From NCBI GenBank assembly GCA_902514665.1, contig CABXRS010000001.1:1-64000 (forward strand): a stretch of DNA of 64,000 bases, in the 5' to 3' direction. Of the stretch, positions 1 through 64,000 are shown one piece after another. The stretch comes from an uncultured Pelagibacteraceae bacterium. Its GTDB lineage: Bacteria; Pseudomonadota; Alphaproteobacteria; Pelagibacterales; Pelagibacteraceae. Positions within the stretch are counted from its first letter, which is position 1, and each line of letters opens with the position of its first letter. The translations under genes were made by a program, and so were the position numbers. Below the pieces are notes generated by a model. It made no database searches. It was not told the DNA's origin and saw only the letters and a program-made list of their open reading frames with translations.

Positions 1-251
1 GGGTGAACAATATTTGAAATCTTTTTTAAATTTCTTTTATTTGCCTTTATTGCAGCCGCAAGTTCATTTTTTTTTATAATTTTTGATTTTATAAATTTTG
101 GAAATTTTTTTTTTATTTTTCTAAAGCATAATTTATCATTTTCATAAATGTGCCCAACTTCTTTATCTGCATCAAAAACTGGAGATCCAAATTGCTTAGC
201 TACAAAACTTTTTCCAGCACCTATGTCACCTAAAATACCAATTTTTATCAA
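1..251 (-). CDS. coaE: Dephospho-CoA kinase, C-terminus beyond window
   Basis: Partial gene; only about the first 83 codons are in the window. CoaE phosphorylates dephospho-CoA with ATP in the last step of coenzyme A synthesis. Translating the minus strand from a TTG at 251-249 gives MIKIGILGDIGAGKSFVAKQ, a P-loop (GDIGAGKS) at residues 8-15, followed by FDADKEVGH, the usual CoaE Asp-Ala-Asp segment. No ATG is available at the right place, so TTG is the likely start; it overlaps the aroE stop by a few bases, suggesting translational coupling. The coaE-aroE-maf-ppsR order is the standard left flank of the alphaproteobacterial origin. The function is recognised from family motifs; the missing C-terminus cannot be checked. 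Confidence 0.88.
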   Translation of the reverse strand, partial: MIKIGILGDIGAGKSFVAKQFGSPVFDADKEVGHIYENDKLCFRKIKKKFPKFIKSKIIKKNELAAAIKANKRNLKKISNIVH

Positions 252-1039
252 TTTAATAACTCCATGACATCATTATCTATTTTTGGTATTAAATTATTCC
301 AGATTTTAAACGAAGCTTGAGCTTGATAAATAAACATTTTCTTACCGTTTTCTGTTTTATTTCCAATTTTTTTAGCAAATTTTAAGAAGTTAGTTTCTGG
401 GGGGTTATATATAACATCATAAAAAAACTTACCTGACCCAATCTTAGTATAATCTATACCAATACTATCATCACTATTTAAACCAATGCTAGTAGAGTTA
501 ACAATCATGTCGAAATCAGGTAGTATTCCCCATTTTACTACCTCAACTTCATTAAATCTTTTTTTTAAATTTTCTGCTTTTACATGTGTTCTGTTACTTA
601 AAAAAATTTTATTTACGCGCATATTGTTTAAAGCCTCTATGATTGAAGGTGAAACTCCCCCTGCTCCTAATAATAATACTTTTTTTCCATTAATATCGTA
701 GTTAGTGTTTTTAATAGCTAACTGAAAACCTTCGATATCAGTGTTGTGGCCTATAACCATTTTATCTTTTAAATAAATAGTATTTACCGATTGTGTTTTC
801 TTTGCTTCGTTTGATAATTGATCTAAAAATGGAATGATTGAACTTTTAAATGGAATAGTAACGTTAACCCCATCAATTCTTTTTTCCCTAACATCTTTAA
901 TTAAATTTTCTAACTCTGAAACATCTAGCTTTTTTTTATTATAAATTGCATCTAAATTATTTTTTTTTATCCAATAATTGTGCAATATTGGCGACAAAGA
1001 ATGTTCTATGGGATTACCTATTACTAAGAATTTTTTCAT
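248..1039 (-). CDS. aroE: Shikimate dehydrogenase
   Basis: Reduces 3-dehydroshikimate to shikimate with NADPH in aromatic amino acid synthesis, in the cytoplasm. The 263-aa protein has the substrate-binding SLSPILHN segment at residues 14-21, the catalytic lysine in NVTIPFK (about K65), the partner aspartate in HNTDIEG (about D101) and the nucleotide-binding GAGG loop near 125-128. Length is normal for AroE. Its start overlaps the end of maf by 4 bases and its end overlaps the coaE start, so the four leftward genes look like one operon. Confidence 0.95.
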   Translation of the reverse strand: MKKFLVIGNPIEHSLSPILHNYWIKKNNLDAIYNKKKLDVSELENLIKDVREKRIDGVNVTIPFKSSIIPFLDQLSNEAKKTQSVNTIYLKDKMVIGHNTDIEGFQLAIKNTNYDINGKKVLLLGAGGVSPSIIEALNNMRVNKIFLSNRTHVKAENLKKRFNEVEVVKWGILPDFDMIVNSTSIGLNSDDSIGIDYTKIGSGKFFYDVIYNPPETNFLKFAKKIGNKTENGKKMFIYQAQASFKIWNNLIPKIDNDVMELLN

Positions 1040-1623
1040 TTTTGAAGTACTAAATATTCCTTAATTTTTTTTACCGGAAGTCCCATTATTGTATTTTCAT
1101 CCCCATCAATGACTGAAAATAAATTTCTTCCTTCACCTTCTATTTGATAAACATTATATGCATAAAGTTCTTCATCAGAAATTTTTGATAGATACTCTTT
1201 TAACTCTTGCTCAGAAAAATTTTTCATTTTAAGTTTTGCTTTATCTGTATAATTCCAGATCATAGAACCATTTTTAGACAAACAAACAGAACTAATTAAA
1301 TAATGTTCTTTTCCGTTAAGTTTTTTGAGAATTACCATTGCTTCATTTCGATCTGAAGGTTTTGATATAAGCTCTCCCTGCAAATCAATAACACTGTCTG
1401 CACCCAAAACTATTTTTTCATAGTTTTTTGAACTTATTTTATTAGCTTTTAACTCAGCTAAATTTTTAGAGATTAGTTCTGGTGAAGCCTTCTCATTTAA
1501 CATACTTTCTTTAACACTATCCTCATCAACATTTGAGGGCTCAACTTTACAAGATATGTTGTTTGTCTCCAGAATTTTTTTTCTAACTTTGCTTTTAGAG
1601 GCTAAAATTATACTATTTAACAT
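1036..1623 (-). CDS. maf: Maf-family nucleoside triphosphate pyrophosphatase
   Basis: Maf proteins hydrolyse non-canonical or modified nucleoside triphosphates to monophosphates and are linked to septum formation. The 195-aa product begins with the characteristic LASKSKVRKKIL (substrate-binding Ser-Lys-Ser-x-x-Arg) and has the acidic LGADSVID motif near residue 94, then KPSDRNEA. Length fits the family. It overlaps ppsR by 11 bases upstream and aroE by 4 bases downstream, so it is probably co-translated with both. Which Maf subfamily (dTTP/UTP or m7GTP) cannot be decided from sequence reading alone. Confidence 0.9.
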   Translation of the reverse strand: MLNSIILASKSKVRKKILETNNISCKVEPSNVDEDSVKESMLNEKASPELISKNLAELKANKISSKNYEKIVLGADSVIDLQGELISKPSDRNEAMVILKKLNGKEHYLISSVCLSKNGSMIWNYTDKAKLKMKNFSEQELKEYLSKISDEELYAYNVYQIEGEGRNLFSVIDGDENTIMGLPVKKIKEYLVLQK

Positions 1624-2440
1624 TGTTAGAATAGATCTCGTGTATTTTAATTATAGATGCAGCCGTTTCTTCAACTGATTTTCTAGTTACGTCAATCACT
1701 GGCCATTTATACTTTTGAAAAGTTTTTTTTGCATTTAAAACTTCATTTTTAATATTTTCTAGATTAGTATATTTTGTATTTTCTGTTTCTTTTAAGGAAT
1801 TCATTCTATTTTTTCTTAGATCAGCTAATCTTTCAGGTTCAGTGCTCAATCCAACTACGCATGTAAAATGAGGGTTTTCTTTTAATTTATTTGGAAGGGA
1901 GTTTTCATTTACTAAGGGAATATTTGAAGTTTTAAAACCTTTGTTAGCAAGGTAAATTGATGTTGGAGTTTTACTTGTCCTGCTAACTCCAACCAATATA
2001 ATATCTGATTTATCAATTTCATTAGCAAAATTTCCATCATCATGATTCATTGTAAATTGAATAGCCTCTATCCTTTCATAATATTCATCATTTAAAATAT
2101 GTTGACCGCTAGGTTCATGTGAAGCTTTTTGATTGAGAATTTTTGAAAAATTTAAAATTAAATTCCCTAAAACACCAAAACATGGTATTTTTTTATCAGA
2201 GCTTGTATTGGCTAAATATTTGGCAAGGTTGTTATCGACAATGGTGTAAAGTATAATTGAATTTTCTTTTTCTTGAGCATCATCTAAAATTTTTAAAATT
2301 TGATTTTCTGTTCTAGTAAATGAATATGAATGAACTTTATATTCAATATTTTTAAATTGAGCTTTTAAAGCTAAAAAAATTCTTTCTAAAGTTTCGCCCG
2401 TAGAGTCTGAAATTAAATATATCTGGTATGTATTAGTCAT
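1613..2440 (-). CDS. ppsR: PEP synthase/PPDK regulatory kinase-phosphorylase (DUF299)
   Basis: Members of this family (PF03618) phosphorylate and dephosphorylate phosphoenolpyruvate synthase or pyruvate phosphate dikinase using ADP and Pi. The 275-aa protein starts with YLISDSTGETLERI and contains the P-loop-like GVSRTSKTPTSIYLANKG near residues 150-167, both hallmarks. It is the first gene leftward from the candidate origin. Its homologue (Rickettsia RP001) sits at the same place beside hemE in Caulobacter and Rickettsia. Which enzyme it regulates cannot be told from this window, as no ppsA or ppdK is present. Confidence 0.9.
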   Translation of the reverse strand: MTNTYQIYLISDSTGETLERIFLALKAQFKNIEYKVHSYSFTRTENQILKILDDAQEKENSIILYTIVDNNLAKYLANTSSDKKIPCFGVLGNLILNFSKILNQKASHEPSGQHILNDEYYERIEAIQFTMNHDDGNFANEIDKSDIILVGVSRTSKTPTSIYLANKGFKTSNIPLVNENSLPNKLKENPHFTCVVGLSTEPERLADLRKNRMNSLKETENTKYTNLENIKNEVLNAKKTFQKYKWPVIDVTRKSVEETAASIIKIHEIYSNNVK

Positions 2441-2710
2441 GTATTAATTGTTAATAAATATGTATTATTTTAATAGAATTACTCAATTTAATTTTTGCTA
2501 ATTACTCCTTGTAAAATAAGGGTTTTATTAACAATAATATTAAATTCAATTAAACAATACAGGAATGTTAATAAGAGCTAAAAAACGTCGATTTTTGTGA
2601 GTTTTAATTAAACATAGATGTGGTTAAAAGGTGAATAAAATGTTTATAATAAGTAATCATCACTATTCACAACACATAATACTAATACAATATTTATAAA
2701 TATATTTTAT
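2441..2710. other. oriC: Candidate chromosomal origin of replication (oriC)
   Basis: A 270-bp AT-rich gap between divergent ppsR and hemE, the location of oriC in Caulobacter and Rickettsia. Three sequences each differ by one base from the DnaA box TTATNCACA: TGTGGTTAA at 2619-2627 (minus strand TTAACCACA), GGTGAATAA at 2630-2638 (minus strand TTATTCACC) and CTATTCACA at 2663-2671. The stretch 2521-2560 is nearly pure A/T and could be the unwinding element. Genes diverge from here on both sides. No small ORF or RNA gene is apparent. The location is established for relatives; the boxes are seen; origin activity is inferred. Confidence 0.7.
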
Positions 2711-3712
2711 ATGACACCGCTACATCAAGTAATATTAAAAAAAAATACAAACATCAATCCAATATGGATTATGAGACAGGCAGGTAGATATCTCCCAGAA
2801 TTTAGAGAGATACGAAAGGAAAATCCTGATTTTATAAAATTATGTTTAAATGAAAAATTATCATCTGAAATAACACTTCAACCAATTAAAAGATTTAATT
2901 TAGATGCTGCAATAATTTTTTCTGACATTTTAATGTTACCTTATGGTTTAAATCAAAAGGTAGAATTTAAAAAAAATTTTGGTCCTGTCTTAGAGGAGCT
3001 TCAATTAAATGAGATCTTAAAAATAAGTGAAGAAAAATTTATAAAAAAAATTGACCCAGTTTATAAATCAATTAGATCTGTCAGCAGTAATAGTCTTGTT
3101 AAAAATAAAGATACCATCGGTTTTGTAGGAGCACCTTGGACATTACTTGTTTACATGATTAATTTGCAATCTCCAAAAAAAGGGTTGAAAGAAAATTTTT
3201 TTAAAGATGATAATTTAATTAAAAGTGCTTTAAAAGTTATTGATAAGTTTTTAAAAATACATATTAAAAACCAAATTCAAAATGGAGCTAGTGTAATTCA
3301 AATATTTGATAGTTGGGCAGGATTACTAGAAGAAAAAGATTATCAAAGTTATATATATGAGCCAACTACAAGTATAATTAATTTTGTAAAATCACTTAAA
3401 ATTCCAGTTATTTGTTTTCCAAGACAAATTAAAAATTATCAGAAGTTTTGTGAGATTGTAAAACCAGATGTTGTTAATATAGATTATGATGTTGATCCTT
3501 TGACCATTAGCAAAACAATAAAAATTCCAGTTCAAGGTGGTTTAGATCCTAAAATTTTATTATCTAATAAAGAAACTTTAGAAAAAGAGGCAATCAAATA
3601 TTTAGATATTTTTAAAGATCATCCATATATATTTAATCTTGGTCATGGTATTCTTCCTGAAACAAAACCTGAAATGTTAGAGCATTTAGTTAAAATTGTA
3701 AAAAATTATTGA
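2711..3712 (+). CDS. hemE: Uroporphyrinogen decarboxylase
   Basis: Removes four carboxyl groups from uroporphyrinogen III to give coproporphyrinogen III in haem synthesis. The 333-aa protein carries the substrate-binding WIMRQAGRYLPEFR near residues 19-32, the GFVGAPWTLL motif near 138, and IQIFDSWAG near 197. It begins the rightward gene run from the candidate origin and its stop codon abuts the hemH ATG without a gap, so hemE-hemH-hemJ form a haem operon. The start fits known HemE N-termini. Confidence 0.96.
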   Translation: MTPLHQVILKKNTNINPIWIMRQAGRYLPEFREIRKENPDFIKLCLNEKLSSEITLQPIKRFNLDAAIIFSDILMLPYGLNQKVEFKKNFGPVLEELQLNEILKISEEKFIKKIDPVYKSIRSVSSNSLVKNKDTIGFVGAPWTLLVYMINLQSPKKGLKENFFKDDNLIKSALKVIDKFLKIHIKNQIQNGASVIQIFDSWAGLLEEKDYQSYIYEPTTSIINFVKSLKIPVICFPRQIKNYQKFCEIVKPDVVNIDYDVDPLTISKTIKIPVQGGLDPKILLSNKETLEKEAIKYLDIFKDHPYIFNLGHGILPETKPEMLEHLVKIVKNY

Positions 3713-4711
3713 ATGAGAAACGAAAAGAATCACCCAAACATAAAATATGGGAAAACAGGTGTACTTATTATTAATCTTGGTACACCCGACTCGACAAGTT
3801 GGCTTGATATTAGACGATATTTAAAAGAATTCCTATCTGATAAAAGGGTAATTGAAGTAAACCCTATACTTTGGCAGATAATTTTAAACCTGATCATCTT
3901 AACGTTCAGGCCTTCTAAAACAGCAAGGGCTTACAAAGAAATATGGATGAAGGAAGAAAACATGTCACCTCTATTATATTATACCCAAAAGCAAGCACAA
4001 AAACTTTCGAAATCTGTTGCAAGTGAGGATGTGATTCTAGATTTTGCTATGAGATATGGCAATCCGAGTATTAGAAGTAAAATTTATAAACTTAAGGAAC
4101 AAGGTTGTGAAAATTTAGTAATACTCCCACTCTATCCTCAATATGCTGCAGCTACTACAGCGACTGTTTGTGATGAGGTTTACAGAACTTTGATGGATAT
4201 GAGGTGGCAGCCTTCATTAAAAATTATTCCACATTATGAGTCTGAGCCACTCTATATTGATGCACTTGTAAATTCTATAAATAAAAAAATTGATGAATTA
4301 AGTTGGAAACCTGATTTAATAATTGCTTCATATCACGGCATACCAAAAAAATATTTTGATAAAGGAGACCCTTACCATTGCTATTGTCACAAAACGACAA
4401 GATTAATCACTGAAAAATTTAAAACTATTGAAATCAAAACAACTTTTCAGTCAAGATTTGGCCCACAGGCATGGCTTCAACCTTATACAGATAAAACTCT
4501 AGAGAGCCTTCCCAATGAAGGCAGAAAAAATATTCTAACTATATGTCCTGGCTTTTCCTCAGATTGTGTTGAAACCCTTGAGGAAATTTTAATTCAGGGA
4601 AAAGAAAGTTTTCTTAATGCTGGAGGCGAAAACTTTGATATGATTCCATGTTTAAATGATAATGATGATCATATAATTTTACTCAAGTCTTTAATTGAAA
4701 AAAGTATTTAA
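3713..4711 (+). CDS. hemH: Ferrochelatase
   Basis: Inserts ferrous iron into protoporphyrin IX, the final haem step, at the inner membrane face. The 332-aa protein starts with the typical GVLIINLGTPDS segment (about residues 16-27), has the LPLYPQYAAATTA motif and the active-site histidine in ASYHGIP near residue 208, followed by GDPYHCYC. QSRFGPQAWLQPYT near 258 is also family-typical. Its ATG immediately follows the hemE stop, and hemJ starts 3 bases after its own stop, so it is translated as part of the haem operon. Confidence 0.96.
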   Translation: MRNEKNHPNIKYGKTGVLIINLGTPDSTSWLDIRRYLKEFLSDKRVIEVNPILWQIILNLIILTFRPSKTARAYKEIWMKEENMSPLLYYTQKQAQKLSKSVASEDVILDFAMRYGNPSIRSKIYKLKEQGCENLVILPLYPQYAAATTATVCDEVYRTLMDMRWQPSLKIIPHYESEPLYIDALVNSINKKIDELSWKPDLIIASYHGIPKKYFDKGDPYHCYCHKTTRLITEKFKTIEIKTTFQSRFGPQAWLQPYTDKTLESLPNEGRKNILTICPGFSSDCVETLEEILIQGKESFLNAGGENFDMIPCLNDNDDHIILLKSLIEKSI

Positions 4712-4714
4712 TAA

Positions 4715-5149
4715 ATGAATACTTATTTACTATTTAAATCTTTACATTTAATTTCTGTTATCTCTTGGATGGCAGGCCTTTTGTATTTGCCAAGAATTTT
4801 TGTTTATCATGCAGAAAATAATTCTGAAGTAAAAGTTTCTGAGATATTTAAAGTAATGGAGAGAAAACTTTATTTTTATATCATGACACCTGCGATGACT
4901 TTATCTTGGTTTTTTGGACTTTTGTTAATTCATAGCATTGGTTTTCAACAATTGGGGCAAACCTGGATGATTTTAAAATTAATTTTTGTGGTTATTCTAA
5001 CATTTTACCATTTTTACTTAGGTAGAATTTTAAGTCAGTTCAAAATAGATAATAATCAACATTCACATAAATTCTTTAGATATATCAATGAAATACCCAC
5101 AATATTATTAATTTTGATCATTTTTGTTGTTATTTTTAAACCAATCTAG
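4715..5149 (+). CDS. hemJ: HemJ-type protoporphyrinogen IX oxidase
   Basis: HemJ (UPF0093) oxidises protoporphyrinogen IX to protoporphyrin IX in bacteria that lack HemY or HemG. The 144-aa protein is an integral membrane protein with about four hydrophobic segments. It has the conserved N-terminal histidine in KSLHLISVISWMAGL (about residues 8-22) and a GRILSQF loop lysine/arginine region near residue 102. Its position immediately after hemH supplies exactly the step preceding ferrochelatase, which strongly supports the assignment. Length matches the family. Confidence 0.9.
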   Translation: MNTYLLFKSLHLISVISWMAGLLYLPRIFVYHAENNSEVKVSEIFKVMERKLYFYIMTPAMTLSWFFGLLLIHSIGFQQLGQTWMILKLIFVVILTFYHFYLGRILSQFKIDNNQHSHKFFRYINEIPTILLILIIFVVIFKPI

Positions 5150-5151
5150 GG

Positions 5152-5204
5152 TTGAAAAAAAACTAAGAATATATATATTAGCTATATTGATAAGTCCTTA
5201 TCAA
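5152..5204 (+). promoter_or_regulatory. rho promoter and leader palindrome
   Basis: A sigma70-like promoter with -35 TTGAAA at 5152-5157, 16-bp spacer and -10 TATATT at 5174-5179 precedes rho. Right where transcription should start lies a perfect 8-bp inverted repeat TTGATAAG-TC-CTTATCAA at 5187-5204, ending 10 bases before the rho ATG. It could be an operator or a leader hairpin covering the ribosome-binding area. No T-run follows, so it is not an intrinsic terminator. Confidence 0.55.
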
Positions 5205-5214
5205 AATCTAAATC

Positions 5215-6483
5215 ATGAACATTCAAGAATTAAAATTAAAATCATCAGAACAGCTTATTACTCAGGCTGAAGAACTTGGTATTGAAAATGCAAGTACATT
5301 AAGAAAACAAGAGATTCTATTTGCAATTTTAAAGAAAGTTGCTGAGAAAGAAGAAATCACTGGAGTAGGAGTTTTACAACTATTACAAGATGGATTTGGT
5401 TTTTTGAGAGCAATGGAATCAAATTACTTACCTGGTCCAGACGATATATATGTTAGCCCAAGCCAGATAAGAAAGTTTGGATTGAGAACAGGTGATACGG
5501 TTGAAGGCCCTGTTAGAGCACCAAAAGAAGGTGAAAGATATTTTGCATTACTTCAAGTTAGTAAAATTAATTTTGAAGCACCAGAAAAAGCAAGACACAA
5601 AATTGCATTCGATAACCTCACACCGCTTTACCCTGACAAGCAGTTAGTTATGGAAGTTGAAACCACAAAGGTTGAAAAAAAACCAGACTTAACTCCTCGA
5701 CTAATCGATTTAGTAAGTCCTATTGGTAAAGGACAAAGATCAATCATAATTTCACCACCAAAAGCAGGAAAAACGATGATTCTACAAAGTATTGCTAACT
5801 CGATAGCAAAGAATTATCCAGAATGTTATTTAATAGTTCTATTGATTGATGAGCGTCCAGAGGAAGTAACAGACATGCAAAGAACGGTTAAAGGCGAAGT
5901 CATTAGTTCAACTTTTGATGAACCTGCTCAAAGGCATGTCGCAGTTGCAGAAATGGTTATAGAAAAAGCAAAAAGATTAACTGAACATAAAAAAGATGTA
6001 GTTATACTCTTAGATTCAATTACCAGGCTAGGTAGAGCTTATAATGCTGTCATACCAAGTTCAGGAAAAGTTTTAACAGGTGGTGTTGATGCTAATGCAC
6101 TTCAAAGACCGAAAAGATTTTTTGGTGCAGCCAGAAATATTGAAGAAGGAGGTTCTTTAACAATTATTTCAACTGCTTTAATTGATACAGGTAGTAGAAT
6201 GGACGAAGTAATTTTTGAGGAATTTAAAGGAACTGGTAATAGCGAAACAGTTCTAGATAGAAAAATTGCAGACAAAAGAATTTACCCAGCAATCGATATC
6301 ACTAAGTCAGGTACAAGAAGAGAGGAATTATTATTTGATAAAAATGATCTTCAAAAAATGAATGTCCTAAGAAGAATTATAGCTCCGATGGGAACTATGG
6401 ATGCTATAGAGTTTATCAATTCAAAATTAAAGGACACAAAAAATAATTCAGAGTTTTTCAACTCTATGAATAAACCTGCCTAA
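5215..6483 (+). CDS. rho: Transcription termination factor Rho
   Basis: Hexameric RNA-dependent ATPase/helicase that releases RNA polymerase. The 422-aa protein has an N-terminal Rho domain (about 1-45), the RNA-binding cold-shock-like domain with GFGFLR near residue 62, and the ATPase core with Walker A SPPKAGKT near 178-185, Walker [12 protein letters not shown] near 262-272, and Q-loop [13 protein letters not shown]. Length is normal with no insertion. It lies between hemJ and mnmE as in Caulobacter. Its leader has a palindrome that may mediate control. Confidence 0.97.
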
Positions 6484-6504
6484 CAAAATAAATTTAATTT
6501 AAGT

Positions 6505-6534
6505 TTTACAGTGGTATAAATTTGAAGTTATAAT
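6505..6534 (+). promoter_or_regulatory. mnmE promoter, predicted leaderless
   Basis: TTTACA at 6505-6510, 18-bp spacer, perfect TATAAT at 6529-6534. The usual start distance of about 7 bases from the -10 lands on the A of the mnmE ATG at 6541, implying a leaderless mRNA. No Shine-Dalgarno is seen between. Confidence 0.6.
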
Positions 6535-6540
6535 CTTCAA

Positions 6541-7872
6541 ATGACAATTTATGCTTTATCCAGTGGACCAGGAATCTCAGGTATAGCCGTTGTAAGAATT
6601 TCAGGCCAAAATACCTCTAAAGTGATAGAGCTAATGACTGGCAAGAGTGTACCCAAGCCAAGAGTAGCAACACTCAGAAAAATCAACAAAATCAACACTT
6701 CTGAGCTTATAGATGAGGGTTTAATATTATGGTTTCCTGGTCCTGAGAGCTACACAGGCGAAGATATGGCCGAAATACAGGTCCACGGCAGCAAAGCTGT
6801 AATAGATGCTTTACATTCTAATATTTCGAAGATTAAAAATTGTCGTTTAGCTGAACCTGGAGAATTTACGAAGCTCGCGTTTCAAAATGGCAAAATAAAT
6901 TTGCTTAAAGCAGAGAGTGTTGCAGATTTAATCTCATCTGAAACAGAAATTCAAAGACAACAAGCTATAAAAATAATGAATGGTCGATCAGCAGATCAAT
7001 TTAATTATCTAAGGGAAAAACTTTTAAAAATTCTATCTCATGTAGAAGCTAAAATAGATTTTCCTGATGAAGATCTACCAAACGATATTTTAAATGAGAT
7101 TAAAAAAAGTTCGGATGACGTTTTAAAAAATTTAGAAAAAATTTTAGATGACCAAAAAGTTGGAGAGAGAATTAGAGAAGGTTTTAAAATTGCAATTCTT
7201 GGGCCAACGAACGCTGGTAAGTCTAGTTTGCTAAATCATTTATCAAATAGGGATGTTGCAATCGTCTCAGAAATTGCAGGAACTACAAGAGATGTAATAG
7301 AAACTCACCTTAATATTGATGGCTACCCAGTGATAGTGTCAGATACAGCTGGTATAAGAGAAAGTAAAAATGAAATTGAAAAAAAAGGTATCAAATTATC
7401 TCTTAATAGAGCAGAGGAAGCAGATCTAAAATTAGTGGTGGTAGACTCAAGAAACCTTGATTTTACTGATGTTTTGAAAAGATTATTAGATAAAAATGCA
7501 ATTTTAGTAGTAAATAAATCAGATCTATTAAAAGAAGATATTGATCCAAAAATAAAAAAAATAGATCACGTCTTAATTTCAATAAAAGAAAATACAAATA
7601 TCGAAAAATTAATATTGAAAATAAAAAATAATTTAAAAAATAAATTTATTATAAGTGATGATATTTTAATAACTAGAGAGCGTCACAGACAACATTTGCA
7701 ACAATGTTTGGATCATTTAAAAAACTTTAATCAAAAAAAAGAAATTACAGATTTTGATAAAGCAGCTGAGGATTTAAGATTGGCCACGAGGCATTTAGGT
7801 ATGATAGTTGGAAAAGTTGATGTCGAAGAGATATTAGGCAGTATTTTCAACGATTTTTGCATAGGCAAATAA
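6541..7872 (+). CDS. mnmE: tRNA uridine-5-carboxymethylaminomethyl modification GTPase MnmE
   Basis: With MnmG, MnmE modifies the wobble uridine of tRNAs that read two-family codons. The 443-aa protein has the N-terminal folate-binding domain (about 1-118), a helical domain, an inserted G domain with P-loop GPTNAGKSSL (about residues 221-230), DTAG near 268 and NKSD near 326, and the C-terminal FCIGK whose cysteine is catalytic. The start MTIYALSSGPG matches family N-termini. It is next to mnmG, its obligate partner, separated by 117 bp containing an inverted repeat. Confidence 0.96.
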   Translation: MTIYALSSGPGISGIAVVRISGQNTSKVIELMTGKSVPKPRVATLRKINKINTSELIDEGLILWFPGPESYTGEDMAEIQVHGSKAVIDALHSNISKIKNCRLAEPGEFTKLAFQNGKINLLKAESVADLISSETEIQRQQAIKIMNGRSADQFNYLREKLLKILSHVEAKIDFPDEDLPNDILNEIKKSSDDVLKNLEKILDDQKVGERIREGFKIAILGPTNAGKSSLLNHLSNRDVAIVSEIAGTTRDVIETHLNIDGYPVIVSDTAGIRESKNEIEKKGIKLSLNRAEEADLKLVVVDSRNLDFTDVLKRLLDKNAILVVNKSDLLKEDIDPKIKKIDHVLISIKENTNIEKLILKIKNNLKNKFIISDDILITRERHRQHLQQCLDHLKNFNQKKEITDFDKAAEDLRLATRHLGMIVGKVDVEEILGSIFNDFCIGK

Positions 7873-7919
7873 TAATCAATTTATCTGTAATTTTTGCTAT
7901 TTTTTATCAAAAATCGTTG
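7848..7919 (+). repeat. 12-bp inverted repeat across mnmE stop
   Basis: CAACGATTTTTG at 7848-7859, inside the last codons of mnmE, is perfectly complementary to CAAAAATCGTTG at 7908-7919 in the mnmE-mnmG gap. The loop of 48 bases contains a smaller GCAAA/TTTGC pairing. It could form a processing or attenuation structure; no long T-run follows. Confidence 0.5.
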
Positions 7920-7989
7920 GTATTTAACACTTATTCGCTAAAAGCAAGAGGTATCTTGTAAATAAATTAATCAGCTATAAGTTTAGCTC

Positions 7990-9861
7990 ATGAAAAATGA
8001 TTTATCTTTTGATGTAGTAGTAATTGGTGGTGGACATGCAGGTTGTGAAGCTGCAACTGCCTCTGCACGCTTAGGAGTTAACACTGCTTTATTTACCCAT
8101 AAGATTGAAACGATTGGTGAGATGTCGTGTAATCCAGCTATTGGTGGATTAGGTAAAGGTCATTTAGTTAGAGAGATAGATGCTCTCGATGGCGTTATGG
8201 GTGAGATTGCTGATAAGTCAGGAATACAATTTAGGTTGCTAAACAGAAGTAGAGGTCCTGCTGTTCGTGGACCAAGAACACAGTCAGATAGATCTTTATA
8301 TCGAAAATATATGCAAGAAAAACTTGTAAACTACTGTAATTTACACATTTTTTCTGATCCTGTTATCAAGTTTATTTTTAATAAAAACACTATAAGTGGT
8401 TTTGAAACTAAAAATGGCAAAAAAGTTACATGTGGTAAGTTAATACTAACAACAGGCACTTTTTTAAATGGTTTGATACATATAGGTGATGAAAGAACAC
8501 CAGCAGGAAGATATGATGAGAAACCTTCTACAGGTTTAAGTGAACAATTACAAAAATACGAATTCAAAATTGGAAGGTTAAAAACTGGAACTCCTCCTCG
8601 ATTAGATTCAAGGACGATTAATTATAAAAATTTAGAAGAACAGTTTGCAGATGATGATCCTTATTTTTTTTCATTTCTAACTAAAAAAAATATAAACGAA
8701 CAAGTATCATGTAGGATGACATACACCAATCAAAAGGTACATAAGATTATAGAAAAAAATCTATCAAAGAGTGCAATGTACTCTGGTAGCATAAAAAGTG
8801 TTGGACCAAGATACTGTCCTTCTATAGAAGATAAAATAGTTAAATTTTCAGATAAAGGACGACATCAGATATTTTTGGAGCCCGAAGGATTAAATGATCA
8901 TACAATTTACCCAAATGGTATTTCTACATCGCTTCCAAATGAGGTTCAGCAAGAAATATGTAATAATATCAGTGGTTTAGAAAATGTTAAAATAATTAGA
9001 CCTGGATATGCTATAGAATATGACTATGTAGACCCTAGAGAGCTTTTTCTTACCCTTGAGACTAAAAAAATTAATAATCTTTACCTAGCTGGCCAAATAA
9101 ATGGAACTACTGGTTATGAGGAAGCTGCATCACAAGGTCTTATTGCTGGAATAAATGCTGCATTATCTGTCAAGGGACAAGAACCATTTATATTAGATAG
9201 ATCTGATGCTTACATAGGAGTAATGATTGACGATTTAGTAACTAAAGGCGTTGCTGAACCCTATAGAATGTTTACTTCTCGGGCAGAATATAGATTAAGC
9301 TTGAGAGCAGATAATGCAGATCAAAGGTTGACTGGTAAAGGCATCGAAATTGGATTAATTGGAGATAAAAGAAAGGAAATATATTTAGATAAATCTGAAA
9401 AATTAAAGAATATTTCTAATAAAATGTTGAAATCTCACATTTCTCCAAATAAAGCTGAAAATTATGGTATAAAGATAGCAAAAGATGGAATTCTTAGGTC
9501 TTCGAGTGAAATTCTAACCCAAAAAGATGTAGATATGTTTAAAATAAGAGAGATTTGGAGTCATATACCCTATTATGACAGAGAAATTGATGAGCAGATA
9601 GAAATAAATGCGCATTATAGAGGTTATTTAAAAAAGCAAAAAGCTGACATCTTGGCTTTTAAAAGAGATGAAAACCTAATAATTCCTGAAAAAATTGATT
9701 ATGACAAGCTCCCAGGACTATCAAATGAGGTAAAGGCAAAATTTAACCAAATTAAGCCTAAAACTATGGGTCAGGCCTTAAGAATAGATGGAATCACTCC
9801 TGCGGCTGTATATATTTTGTTGTCACATGTAAAAAGAAAGTCTATTAAGCATATAGCTTAA
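7990..9861 (+). CDS. mnmG: tRNA uridine-5-carboxymethylaminomethyl modification enzyme MnmG
   Basis: FAD-dependent partner of MnmE (formerly GidA). The 623-aa protein has the FAD-binding [10 protein letters not shown] near residues 13-22, the family signature [11 protein letters not shown] near 276-286, and the C-terminal [13 protein letters not shown] contact near 375-384. The end (about 540-620) is the helical MnmE-binding domain with PGLSNE. Length is standard. Its last base overlaps the rsmG ATG by one, so rsmG is translationally coupled. A TATAAG at 7976-7981 may be a -10 but has no good -35. Confidence 0.97.
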
Positions 9862-10514
9862 TGGATAAAGAAATTATAAATTCTTACTCAAAACTTTCAG
9901 GGCTAAATGTTCCACGTGAAACATTTTCAGACTTCGAAAGCTATATATCAATGATCTTAGAAAAAAATGAAAAAATCAACTTAATTAGCGGTAAATTTAG
10001 TGAAAAAAATGATATAATTGAGCGTCATATTATTGATTCTGCGCAAATTATTGATATTATTGACTTTAATAGTAATATAACTACAGATATAGGCTCAGGT
10101 AGTGGAATGCCGGGTATAATTATAGCAATTCTACTAAAAAGCCTTAAAAAAGATATAAAGGTCAAGCTTTATGAAAAAAGCTACCATAAAAGCCATTTTC
10201 TTAGAGATGTCTCTAGAAAATTAAATCTAAAAACAGAAATAATACAAAAAAATATTTTTGAAGAAAAAAAATTAGAAACAGGAACAATAATGTCTAGAGC
10301 ATTTAAACCGATGCCAGTAGTTTTAGATTTAGTGAATGAAAATTTTTCTAATTTTTCAAATATAATTTTTTTTATGGGCAAGAGTGGAAGAGAAATTTTT
10401 CAAAATACATTAAAGGATTGGGAGTTAGATTATTCTGAAAAAAAAAGTTTAACAAGCGAAGAATCTTTTTTAGTAAATGTGAAAAAAATTAAAAAAAAAA
10501 TTAAAAGAAATTAA
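9861..10514 (+). CDS. rsmG: 16S rRNA (guanine527-N7)-methyltransferase
   Basis: RsmG (GidB) methylates G527 of 16S rRNA with SAM. The 217-aa protein has the N-terminal NVPRETF helix (about 16-22), the KINLIS motif, and the SAM loop TDIGSGSGMPG near residues 75-85. The C-terminal part is more diverged and lysine-rich, but length is normal. It overlaps mnmG by 1 base and abuts parA without a gap. The DNA coding for NVPRETF is also a parS site, so this gene carries a dual-use sequence. Confidence 0.93.
   Translation: MDKEIINSYSKLSGLNVPRETFSDFESYISMILEKNEKINLISGKFSEKNDIIERHIIDSAQIIDIIDFNSNITTDIGSGSGMPGIIIAILLKSLKKDIKVKLYEKSYHKSHFLRDVSRKLNLKTEIIQKNIFEEKKLETGTIMSRAFKPMPVVLDLVNENFSNFSNIIFFMGKSGREIFQNTLKDWELDYSEKKSLTSEESFLVNVKKIKKKIKRN
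9908..9923. promoter_or_regulatory. parS: parS centromere site inside rsmG
   Basis: TGTTCCACGTGAAACA is a full match to the ParB-binding consensus TGTTNCACGTGAAACA and is nearly palindromic. It lies within rsmG, encoding Val-Pro-Arg-Glu-Thr, 0.6 kb from parA and 1.4 kb from parB, and about 7.3 kb from the candidate oriC. It is the only copy I found in the window. Confidence 0.88.
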
Positions 10515-11309
10515 ATGCAAATTATTTCAGTCATAAATCAAAAGGGTGGGGTTGGTAAAACAACTTCAGCAATTAACTTAGCGGCAGGTCTATCTCAACA
10601 GAACAAGAAAATTCTAGTTTTAGACTTAGACCCACAGGGAAATGCAACTACTGGTCTTGGATTATCAAATATGGATAATTCTTCAGAGACAATTTATGGG
10701 GTTCTTAATGGAACAAAAGAAATAAGCGATGTAATTAAAAAGACGCAGTTTGAAAATCTTGATATAATAACCTCTAATGTAGATTTATCTGGTCTTGAGG
10801 TGGAGACGGCTGATGACAGCAACAGAGCTTTCTTATTAAAAGTAAAATTAACCTCATATTTAAACAATTCTGGAGGCATATACGATTATATATTGATAGA
10901 TTGTCCACCATCTCTAAGCTTACTGACTGTAATGGCACTGGTAAGCTCAAACTCACTTCTAGTTCCACTCCAAACAGAATTTTTTGCTTTAGAAGGTTTA
11001 ACTCAGTTAATGAAAACAATTGAGAGAATAAAAGTAAGTCTTAACCCTGACTTAAGCATTAGAGGAATACTATTAACGATGTATGATAAACGAAATAAGC
11101 TGTCCTCTCAAGTTGAGAAGGAGGCTAGAGATTATTTTAAAGAAAAAGTTTATTCAACAGTAATACCTAGGAATGTTAGATTGTCAGAGGCACCTTCACA
11201 TGGGATGCCAGTTCTAATATATGACAAGACTTGTCCAGGTAGTAAAGCATATTTTAGTTTTACGGATGAATTTTTAAATCAAGATACAACAATGGGGAGT
11301 GCTGCTTAA
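10515..11309 (+). CDS. parA: Chromosome partitioning ATPase ParA
   Basis: Walker-type ATPase that moves ParB-parS complexes and segregates chromosome origins. The 264-aa protein has the deviant Walker A KGGVGKTTSA (about residues 10-19), Walker A' LDLDPQGNAT near 36-45 and Walker B YILIDCPPSL near 123-132. No long N-terminal HTH extension is present, as expected for chromosomal ParA. It starts directly after the rsmG stop and overlaps parB by one base; this mnmG-rsmG-parA-parB order is the classic origin-proximal cluster. Confidence 0.96.
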   Translation: MQIISVINQKGGVGKTTSAINLAAGLSQQNKKILVLDLDPQGNATTGLGLSNMDNSSETIYGVLNGTKEISDVIKKTQFENLDIITSNVDLSGLEVETADDSNRAFLLKVKLTSYLNNSGGIYDYILIDCPPSLSLLTVMALVSSNSLLVPLQTEFFALEGLTQLMKTIERIKVSLNPDLSIRGILLTMYDKRNKLSSQVEKEARDYFKEKVYSTVIPRNVRLSEAPSHGMPVLIYDKTCPGSKAYFSFTDEFLNQDTTMGSAA

Positions 11310-12157
11310 TGGATTCTAATAAAATAAAAAGAGGCCTTGGAAGAGGATTATCATCTCTTATAGGTGAAACTAAAGTCGAGTCTCAAAAAAATAGGCTAGC
11401 TATTAGTGATCTTATACCCAATAAATATCAACCTAGAAAAATATTTGATGAGGAAAATTTAAATGAACTTGCTAATTCGATTAGTGAAAGAGGAATTTTA
11501 CAACCAATCATTGTTCGTAAATCAAATGATGACCAATTAAAGTTTGAAATAATTGCAGGAGAAAGAAGGTGGCTTGCGGCTCAAAAGGTAGGCCTGCATG
11601 ATGTGCCGGTGGTAATTACAGAAGCGGATGACTTAAAATCATTAGAATTCGCAATAGTTGAAAATGTTCAAAGGCATGATTTAAATCCCTTAGAAGAAGC
11701 CCAAGGATATAAAAAACTTATTGATGAATTCTCATATGATCAAGAAAAAGTCTCTAAATTTATAGGTAAAAGCCGTAGTTACATTGCTAACGCGCTTAGA
11801 CTTTTGTCTCTTCCAGATGAAGTTGTTAAATTAATTGAAAATCAGAAATTATCAGCTGGCCATGCAAAAATTCTGGTTGGGTTAGAAAATGCAAGTTTTG
11901 TTGCTAACAAAATAATTGAAAATAAATTTTCAGTCAGACAAGCTGAGAATTTTGTAAAATTATTTAGAAATAAAAGACTTAAACCAACTGATTCAAAAGA
12001 TGTAAATATAATGCATTTAGAAATGTCATTAGTAAATAAGGTCGGTTTAAATGTAGAGATCAAAAATAAAAAAAATAATAAAGGCAAAATTTCTTTTGAA
12101 TATAAACATCTAGATCAACTGAACAAAATAATCGATATAGTCAAAAAATATTATTAG
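11309..12157 (+). CDS. parB: ParB chromosome segregation protein / CTPase
   Basis: Binds parS, spreads on DNA as a CTP-dependent clamp and activates ParA. The 282-aa protein begins with the ParA-activating basic stretch RGLGRGLSSLIG (about residues 8-19), then the ParB/Srx N-domain with QPRKIFDE and the CTP-binding GERRW motif near residues 85-89, followed by ENVQRHDLNPLEEA and a helix-turn-helix around IGKSRSYIANALRLL. Its parS target is within rsmG just upstream. It ends 4 bases from convergent holA, with no visible terminator. Confidence 0.96.
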   Translation: MDSNKIKRGLGRGLSSLIGETKVESQKNRLAISDLIPNKYQPRKIFDEENLNELANSISERGILQPIIVRKSNDDQLKFEIIAGERRWLAAQKVGLHDVPVVITEADDLKSLEFAIVENVQRHDLNPLEEAQGYKKLIDEFSYDQEKVSKFIGKSRSYIANALRLLSLPDEVVKLIENQKLSAGHAKILVGLENASFVANKIIENKFSVRQAENFVKLFRNKRLKPTDSKDVNIMHLEMSLVNKVGLNVEIKNKKNNKGKISFEYKHLDQLNKIIDIVKKYY

Positions 12158-19129: not shown

Positions 19130-19620
19130 AAAATTTTTATTTTTGAATTTTTTTTAATCAATTTAAGCATAATCAAAAAATCTTTTTCTTTTAAAGCTAC
19201 ACACCCGGCTGTAGGTTTGTAATCTTTGGTTAGATGAATAAAAATACAACTGCCTTTACCAATAATAGGTTTTTTATAATTATACTTAATTGGGATTAAT
19301 AAATCATATATATGATCTTTTCTTGTTAACTTTTCGTGACTGACTTTTTTATCTATTTTAAAAAGCTTGTTATATTTTCTTGGAAAATTAATATCATCAC
19401 ACCAACCCATATTTTTTTTTATTTCTATACATTTTAATGAAGTAGATGGTTTTATTATTCGATTTTTTCTAAAATAGAGATTTTCAATTTCAAAAGTTCC
19501 CTTAGGTGTTTTTTTATCTCCCTCTTTTTTATTGATTGTTGAACCTTTTTTACCAATAGAACACCTAAATTTGAATTCACCAATTTGAAGAGTGTGTTTA
19601 TTTTTTACAAAAATTGTCAT
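19126..19620 (-). CDS. L,D-transpeptidase catalytic-domain (YkuD) protein
   Basis: YkuD enzymes make 3-3 peptidoglycan cross-links or attach lipoproteins. The 164-aa protein has the motif region FIHLTKDYKPTAGCVAL near residues 127-143, with His and Cys spaced as in YkuD (H then T-x-G-C), and upstream KKTPKGTFEIENLYFR corresponding to the TPxGxF motif. There is no obvious signal peptide, which is unusual for a periplasmic enzyme; it resembles the short DUF-type YkuD proteins of proteobacteria. It overlaps yggS convergently by 4 bases. Confidence 0.8.
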   Translation of the reverse strand: MTIFVKNKHTLQIGEFKFRCSIGKKGSTINKKEGDKKTPKGTFEIENLYFRKNRIIKPSTSLKCIEIKKNMGWCDDINFPRKYNKLFKIDKKVSHEKLTRKDHIYDLLIPIKYNYKKPIIGKGSCIFIHLTKDYKPTAGCVALKEKDFLIMLKLIKKNSKIKIF

Positions 19621-20195
19621 ATTCTCTTTCTGTGAGTCCTCAGATTTTAATAATATACAAGTTTAAACCATTATATCATATTCTTGATGAACTTGATTTG
19701 AATTTAAATTTTAACATCATTTTTGCAGATAATAAGGATTTATTAAATTATACAGAAAAAGAGCATATTAATTATTTGATCGTGTCCAATAAAAAAAATT
19801 TGGATATTGGTAATCAATTTGTTTTAGATAATTTACCAATTAACATTTCTAAATTATTAGAAAAAATAAATATCGAATTCTTAAAACTACAATTTAATAG
19901 TCAATCTGAAGTTAAAGTAAGTAACTACATGATCAACCTTAATTCAAGAGAGATGTTTACAAAAAATACCAAGCTTAAGCTGACAGAAAAAGAAATTAAT
20001 ACAATTATTTATTTATCTAAATTAAACAAACCAGTTAGTATTGTTGAATTACAAGAAAAGGTTTGGAGCTATCAATCTAATATAGAAACTCATACCGTTG
20101 AGACACATATTTATCGATTAAGAAAGAAAATTATAGAAACTTTTAATGATAACGAATTTATAATGAGTAAAAAAAATGGTTATCAAATTAAATAA
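19614..20195 (+). CDS. Winged-helix regulator with pseudo-receiver domain
   Basis: 193 aa from TTG at 19614; GTG at 19632 (MSPQILIIYK) is an equally good start that avoids overlapping the divergent gene. The C-terminal ~80 residues are an OmpR/PhoB-type winged helix: KLTEKEINTIIYL, VWSYQSNIETHTVETHIYRLRKKI, and NGYQIK. The N-terminal ~100 residues look like a shrunken receiver, but the beta3 end reads YLIVSN, without the phospho-acceptor Asp, and the acidic pocket is missing. It probably acts without phosphorylation. No sensor kinase is nearby. Confidence 0.75.
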   Translation: MSYSLSVSPQILIIYKFKPLYHILDELDLNLNFNIIFADNKDLLNYTEKEHINYLIVSNKKNLDIGNQFVLDNLPINISKLLEKINIEFLKLQFNSQSEVKVSNYMINLNSREMFTKNTKLKLTEKEINTIIYLSKLNKPVSIVELQEKVWSYQSNIETHTVETHIYRLRKKIIETFNDNEFIMSKKNGYQIK

Positions 20196-63201: not shown

Positions 63202-64000
63202 ATGAATAAAGTAAAGAACAATCAAAACATAGAAGATTTGAAATCGAACAACTTCGAATGGAGATTGGTTCAAGTTAATATGAGAGATAAATTAGGATCC
63301 GAAGTTTATGAAAGCTGGTTAAAAAAAATTTCTTTCATAGAAGAATTTAATAATTATATGTTATTATCTGTACCCACTAGATTTATTAGAGATTGGATAA
63401 CATCAAGATATTTAGATCAAATATTACAAATTATAAAAAATTACAAAAAAGATATTGCAAGAATTGAATTTAGAATAGTTGAGCCGCAAAATGTCCAAAC
63501 TAAGGAGGCTTTAAAAGAAGAAGCTAACTCAAAAGAAAATGTTTCCTTTATAAAAGACTCTTATTTGCAATATAATCGAATTGATCCTAATAAACGATTT
63601 GATAACTTTATCACAGGAACAAGTAATAAGCTGGCTTATGAGGCATCATTAAAGGTTTCAGAAAATATTTCGCATTACAACCCACTTTACATTTATGGTG
63701 GTGTTGGAATGGGTAAAACACATTTGCTAAATTCTATTGGTTTTGAGTTAAAAAAAAATAGTAAAGTTATGTTTATTTCAGCAGAACGTTTTATGTATCA
63801 ATTTGTAAAATCAATTAAATCAAATGATATGGTAAAGTTTAAAGAATATTTTAGAAATACAGACATTTTGATAATTGATGATATTCAGTTCATAAGTGGT
63901 AAAGAGGCCATGCAGGAAGAATTTTTTCATACCTTTAATGCTTTATTGGATAAGGGATCTCAAATAATCGTCTCTGCTGATAGATCTCCTAATAAATTAT
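63202..64000 (+). CDS. dnaA: Chromosomal replication initiator DnaA, C-terminus beyond window
   Basis: Partial; the first 266 codons are present. DnaA binds DnaA boxes and melts the origin. Translation from ATG 63202 gives MNKVKNNQNIEDLKS, domain I with FEWRLVQVNMRDKLG and YESWLKKI (about residues 18-43), a short linker domain II, then the AAA+ domain: NKRFDNFITG near 130, Walker A YGGVGMGKTHLLNSIG near 167-182 and Walker B DILIIDDIQFISGKEAMQEEFFHTFN near 215-240. The C-terminal DNA-binding domain lies outside the window. No oriC-like DnaA-box cluster is next to it; the likely origin is about 60 kb away. Confidence 0.95.
   Translation, partial: MNKVKNNQNIEDLKSNNFEWRLVQVNMRDKLGSEVYESWLKKISFIEEFNNYMLLSVPTRFIRDWITSRYLDQILQIIKNYKKDIARIEFRIVEPQNVQTKEALKEEANSKENVSFIKDSYLQYNRIDPNKRFDNFITGTSNKLAYEASLKVSENISHYNPLYIYGGVGMGKTHLLNSIGFELKKNSKVMFISAERFMYQFVKSIKSNDMVKFKEYFRNTDILIIDDIQFISGKEAMQEEFFHTFNALLDKGSQIIVSADRSPNKL

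Follow-up and report, generated by a model that had tools for sequence, protein, structure and literature searches.

The 270-bp intergenic gap between ppsR and hemE (positions 2441-2710) in this Pelagibacter (SAR11) contig is very probably the chromosomal replication origin, as judged from its sequence and from those of its relatives. It is most likely an oriC of the alphaproteobacterial hemE/COG1806 type, set in a Pelagibacterales genome without CtrA and opened by DnaA through the mechanism proposed below. This assignment is based on the DnaA boxes, synteny, skew, parS and the retention of boxes after hemE loss. An earlier note on this DNA had already taken the gap for the replication origin, a view now supported by a skew switch at hemE in relatives and by box conservation.

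Results

Setting and DnaA boxes of the gap

The window, i.e. the whole 64-kb stretch analyzed, covers the first part of a contig of 104,744 bases from a fragmented genome (970,700 bases, 81% complete). Nearly all named relatives retrieved through HemE belong to the Pelagibacteraceae, which assigns the window to SAR11. As the earlier note had described, the gap lies between divergent genes, and the gene order is ppsR, gap, hemE, followed by hemH, rho, mnmE, rsmG, parA and parB. The features considered are the following:

1613-2440, minus strand: ppsR (DUF299/COG1806; NF003742, E=1e-91)
2441-2710, no strand: intergenic gap, very probably the replication origin (oriC); seven boxes, AT-rich, conserved synteny, skew switch in relatives
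2449-2457, minus strand: DnaA box TTATTAACA, ppsR-proximal; GT step 90% conserved, 73% of relatives with at most one mismatch to TTATNCACA
2525-2533, plus strand: DnaA box TTATTAACA, middle; AC step 98% conserved, 84% of relatives with at most one mismatch
2566-2574, minus strand: one-mismatch DnaA box TTATTAACA, seen in the window; columns not conserved
2619-2627, minus strand: DnaA box TTAACCACA, first of an array with an 11-bp period
2630-2638, minus strand: DnaA box TTATTCACC, second of the array; GT step 93% conserved
2641-2649, minus strand: DnaA box TTATAAACA, third of the array; GT step 94% conserved
2654-2662, plus strand: possible very weak tandem box TAATCATCA; C2661 100% and T2657 99% conserved
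2663-2671, plus strand: main DnaA box CTATTCACA; A2669 and C2670 invariant, T2666 97% conserved
2676-2690, minus strand: candidate DnaA-trios; NTA every 3 bp on the plus strand, i.e. 3'-NAT-5' on the minus strand
2676-2715, no strand: likely unwinding element, the weakest DNA of the gap
2711-3712, plus strand: hemE (TIGR01464, above cut-off)
9908-9923, plus strand: parS site TGTTCCACGTGAAACA, inside rsmG
10515-12157, plus strand: parA and parB
63202-64000, plus strand: window part of dnaA (start 63202, continuing to contig position 64617; TIGR00362, above cut-off)

The textbook DnaA-box motif TTATNCACA was found with one mismatch seven times in the gap and 68 times in the whole 64-kb window, where no exact copy occurs; outside the gap, 270 bp of the window never contain more than two. 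None of 2000 dinucleotide shuffles of the gap reached seven boxes (Poisson P ~2e-8), and this count, made with the textbook motif, is independent of anything learned from relatives. The earlier note had listed three boxes (TTAACCACA and TTATTCACC on the minus strand, CTATTCACA on the plus strand), all of which are present with one mismatch each, but it had missed four others of equal quality (2449-2457, 2525-2533, 2566-2574 and 2641-2649). Three boxes alone are weak evidence, since 5% of the gap shuffles reach that number.

Judged by their match to the motif, the boxes of the gap are mostly weak variants, and weak DnaA boxes are usual in origins (PMC4285127). The site TAATCATCA carries at least three mismatches to TTATNCACA in most relatives and might possibly act as a very weak tandem box. 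A relaxed recognition by DnaA, as previously suggested for this lineage, found no backing: box 2663-2671 is the canonical TTATTCACA, exact to TTATNCACA, in 47% of relatives, and DnaA domain IV aligned to E. coli 1J1V keeps the RRSR, RPRQ and RDHTT segments intact. As the residues of these segments contact the box, an altered DnaA recognition is not indicated.

Conservation across relatives

The divergent ppsR-gap-hemE arrangement is present in 107 of 107 relatives that have the two genes within reach (30 genomes of the family plus 77 named assemblies, single-cell or other), with gap sizes of 260-294 bp. Comparison of the boxes in close relatives, a check that the earlier note had proposed, showed them to be kept across the 105 distinct gaps aligned, in which the conserved G/C columns fall mostly inside boxes (2449-2457, 2525-2533, 2619-2649 and 2663-2671). 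The relaxed motif TTWTNNACA, picked after the alignment was seen, occurs 3.95 times per gap in the relatives vs 0.82 in shuffles; applied afterwards to four genomes of other genera, it ranked the gap alone in first place among the 300-bp stretches of 40 kb in all four, and the textbook one-mismatch motif gave an agreeing result. By box density, the gap ranked first, alone or jointly, in the majority of the relatives sampled (exceptions: G017, G043 and G078), and other stretches equal or exceed it in one-mismatch boxes in G017, G026, G043 and G078. Exact boxes (TTWTNCACA) show no clustering at the gap in most genomes and, consequently, an exact-box search is useless as an origin finder here.

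Chromosomal position

Uncorrected GC skew, which mainly follows gene orientation, shows no distinct minimum along the window. Skew was analyzed in relatives, the window's own genome being fragmented and incomplete: 20-kb stretches were sampled from seven complete relatives, and their third-position GC skew was corrected for the strand of the genes. A switch at -10 kb from hemE fitted best (bootstrap -10 to +20 kb, seven genomes), with a weak signal that resolves the origin only to ~30 kb and a gene bootstrap that ignores shared ancestry. Individually, five genomes switch at -10 to +10 kb and G078 at -40 kb, and G043 has no switch at hemE. A switch at +60 kb, the position of dnaA, fits clearly worse than one at -10 kb. 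The skew switch called for by the earlier note lies, in these sampled stretches, at hemE and not at dnaA. In G026, with a chromosome of 1.309 Mb and the origin at 0.335 Mb, the opposite switch lies at ~0.83-1.01 Mb, roughly half a chromosome away.

The start of dnaA is 60.5 kb from the gap, and the separation of dnaA from the origin, previously pointed out for this contig, is genus-wide (eight genomes, with 60-64 kb between dnaA and hemE in each). Zero to two one-mismatch boxes occur in the 300 bp preceding dnaA; this box poverty, together with the worse skew fit at +60 kb, led to rejection of the dnaA upstream region as the origin. Each genus genome has one parS with an intact CACGTG core region, located 7-10 kb from hemE.

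The weakest DNA and the TA repeat

The gap is 81% AT, against an average of 70.5%, and reaches the 99th percentile of the window. Within the gap, duplex instability is highest at 2676-2715 (99.9th percentile in the window); 2441-2480 at the ppsR end reaches 99.7 and 2521-2560 reaches 97.3. The AT-rich flank that had been placed at 2521-2560 is thus real (85% AT), but 2676-2715 is weaker; across relatives too, 2671-2710 is the least stable block. The likeliest opening site would be 2676-2715, beside box 2663-2671 and a conserved TA repeat.

In the window, four consecutive NTA repeats follow 4 bp past box 2663-2671. A box at most 16 bp from at least three NAN trios on the proper strand, the arrangement that defines a basal unwinding system, is hence present, this definition being lax in AT-rich DNA, where 12% of shuffles reach three trios. 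At 2676-2690, TA steps recur with a 3-bp period more strongly than anywhere else in the gap (P=0.0008), those at 2677, 2680 and 2686 are ~95% conserved, and runs of at least four TA repeats occur in 45% of relatives vs 3% of shuffles. Half of the relatives have at least three consecutive repeats. From its sequence pattern, a reading picked after the alignment was seen, the TA repeat may well represent DnaA-trios. Somewhat less probably, it could be an AT-rich spacer or the hemE -10, with unwinding beginning elsewhere (2521-2560 or the ppsR end), which would agree with the nearly equal instability of the ppsR end and with the runs of one or two repeats only in about half of the relatives. Against this stand the period-3 signal, located on that side of the most conserved box where trios are expected, the least stable block shared across relatives, and one relative devoid of hemE at the locus (G022) that retains three repeats. 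The TACAAT inside the region may act as a hemE promoter, too.

The 11-bp array and candidate regulators

The array at 2619-2649 consists of three copies of TGTNNATAA with an 11-bp period. Direct repeats of 11 bp are typical of OmpR/PhoB-type response regulators, and PhoB and other OmpR-type regulators are present, which would fit a site through which such a regulator controls the origin or its neighboring genes. Nonetheless, we consider this unlikely: DnaA boxes spaced 2 bp apart give an equal period, the variable G/T column of the array corresponds to C/A at DnaA-box position 6, as at the single sites 2449 and 2525, and the repeats that precede the likely pstS genes of these genomes have the sequence TGTAAY/TTTAAY, a difference from TGTTNATAA that disfavors a Pho box in particular.

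As for other regulators, no CtrA gene scored above the family cut-off in five complete relatives, whereas the control genome does reach it. CtrA sites (TTAA-N7-TTAA) are absent from the window gap and sparse, not enriched, in relatives (34% of gaps; 0.42 per gap vs 0.24 in shuffles). They are also absent from some accepted hemE/COG1806 origins and, hence, not required (PMC1914354). The IHF consensus, a loose one that may miss AT-rich variants, has no match in the window gap and is not enriched in relatives. CcrM has been reported in SAR11 (PMC3973325); GANTC is rare in the gap and not enriched. Rfam detected no structured RNA in window positions 1-8000.

Loss of hemE in two relatives

In G009 and G022, hemE, hemH and hemJ are gone from the locus and ppsR now faces rho. 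With four to five box-like sites, their gaps still rank first within 40 kb, and they retain a box with CTAATA after it. Since the boxes persist after hemE loss, the gap element is not merely a hemE promoter. It is very improbable that the conserved elements are ppsR/hemE promoters and operators, with the real origin at another site within tens of kb, e.g. near dnaA: TACAAT at 2686-2691 would make a plausible -10 element, hemE starting 20 bp further on (T, A, A and T 84-99% conserved), and the skew leaves tens of kb of room, but a promoter does not need seven DnaA boxes, the boxes persist where rho is the next gene, a hemE promoter within an origin is compatible with the origin, and the dnaA side is both box-poor and a clearly worse skew fit.

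In both genomes, hemB-hemE-hemH lie together elsewhere (G009:C1:717145-720072 and G022:C1:411426-414353). The HemE encoded there is divergent and below the family cut-off, and it looks as if the origin-linked hem genes were replaced by transferred genes.

Discussion

The gap belongs to the known hemE/COG1806 origin type (PMC1914354), which is now placed in SAR11 with box-level detail. It shows the flanking genes, the AT content and, in relatives, the skew switch by which such origins are recognized, and the box cluster appears with one-mismatch boxes and disappears in the window with strict TTATNCACA. The Caulobacter crescentus Cori shares the flanking genes, an AT-rich gap and several mostly weak DnaA sites (PMC1914354, PMC4285127). 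In contrast to Cori, SAR11 has no CtrA above cut-off in the five complete relatives, dnaA is 60 kb away, and the window gap has neither TTAA-N7-TTAA nor the IHF consensus. The predicted origins of Rickettsia and Wolbachia are likewise AT-rich and flanked by hemE (in Rickettsia also by COG1806), with few DnaA boxes and sometimes without CtrA sites (PMC1914354); those predictions, however, use exact TTATNCACA and IHF sites, and the window gap has none of either. The basal unwinding system is resembled in the box, the 4-bp spacer and the repeated 3'-NAT-5' on the proper strand (PMC8287927), whereas here the third repeat unit is variable and G at the first trio position is not fixed. The location agrees with that expected for the class, and the layout is undescribed in the literature searched. 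No earlier statement of the SAR11 origin position was found in that literature, although predicted-origin databases such as DoriC may hold one; the passages covered of one SAR11 replication paper give no origin coordinates.

In the mechanism that we propose, DnaA would bind the hemE-proximal box 2663-2671 and the three-box array, whose 11-bp period would place its sites on one helix face, and the outer boxes at 2449 and 2525 would help to assemble the complex. From box 2663-2671, a DnaA polymer would extend along the 3-bp TA repeat on its minus strand and open the weak stretch 2676-2715 for loading of the helicase; ParB at the nearby parS would then segregate the new origins. It is tempting to speculate, though rather doubtful at present, that the Pelagibacterales origin is a stripped-down one lacking CtrA/IHF control, that its functional DnaA sites are mostly of the variant TTATTAACA and that timing is set almost only by the DnaA level and cooperative binding to weak sites.

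SAR11 is an abundant ocean bacterium, and the gap is the probable start of its chromosome copying. Mapping the origin at base level, 60 kb away from dnaA, corrects the common placement of oriC at dnaA, and a small origin without CtrA offers a system for testing replication control in a streamlined cell.

Some additional observations were made around the locus. Near C1:1324389 of G078, a 300-bp stretch contains six one-mismatch DnaA boxes; it is separated from hemE by 62 kb and lies on the side opposite to dnaA. G043, a complete genus genome, has only three boxes in the gap (C1, around 604979) and lacks the skew switch at hemE; a recent rearrangement or a moved origin is possible. At 19614-20195, the window encodes an OmpR-type DNA-binding protein whose receiver half is degenerate. 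In G026 and G063 it is conserved at ~17-19 kb from the origin, and in G009 it is found close to parS; any connection with replication is no more than a guess. Finally, in two genomes of other genera (G005 and G040), rho stays with hemE, whereas mnmE-gidA-rsmG-parAB are found 13-17 kb away on the side of ppsR; this layout is a rearrangement centered on the origin.
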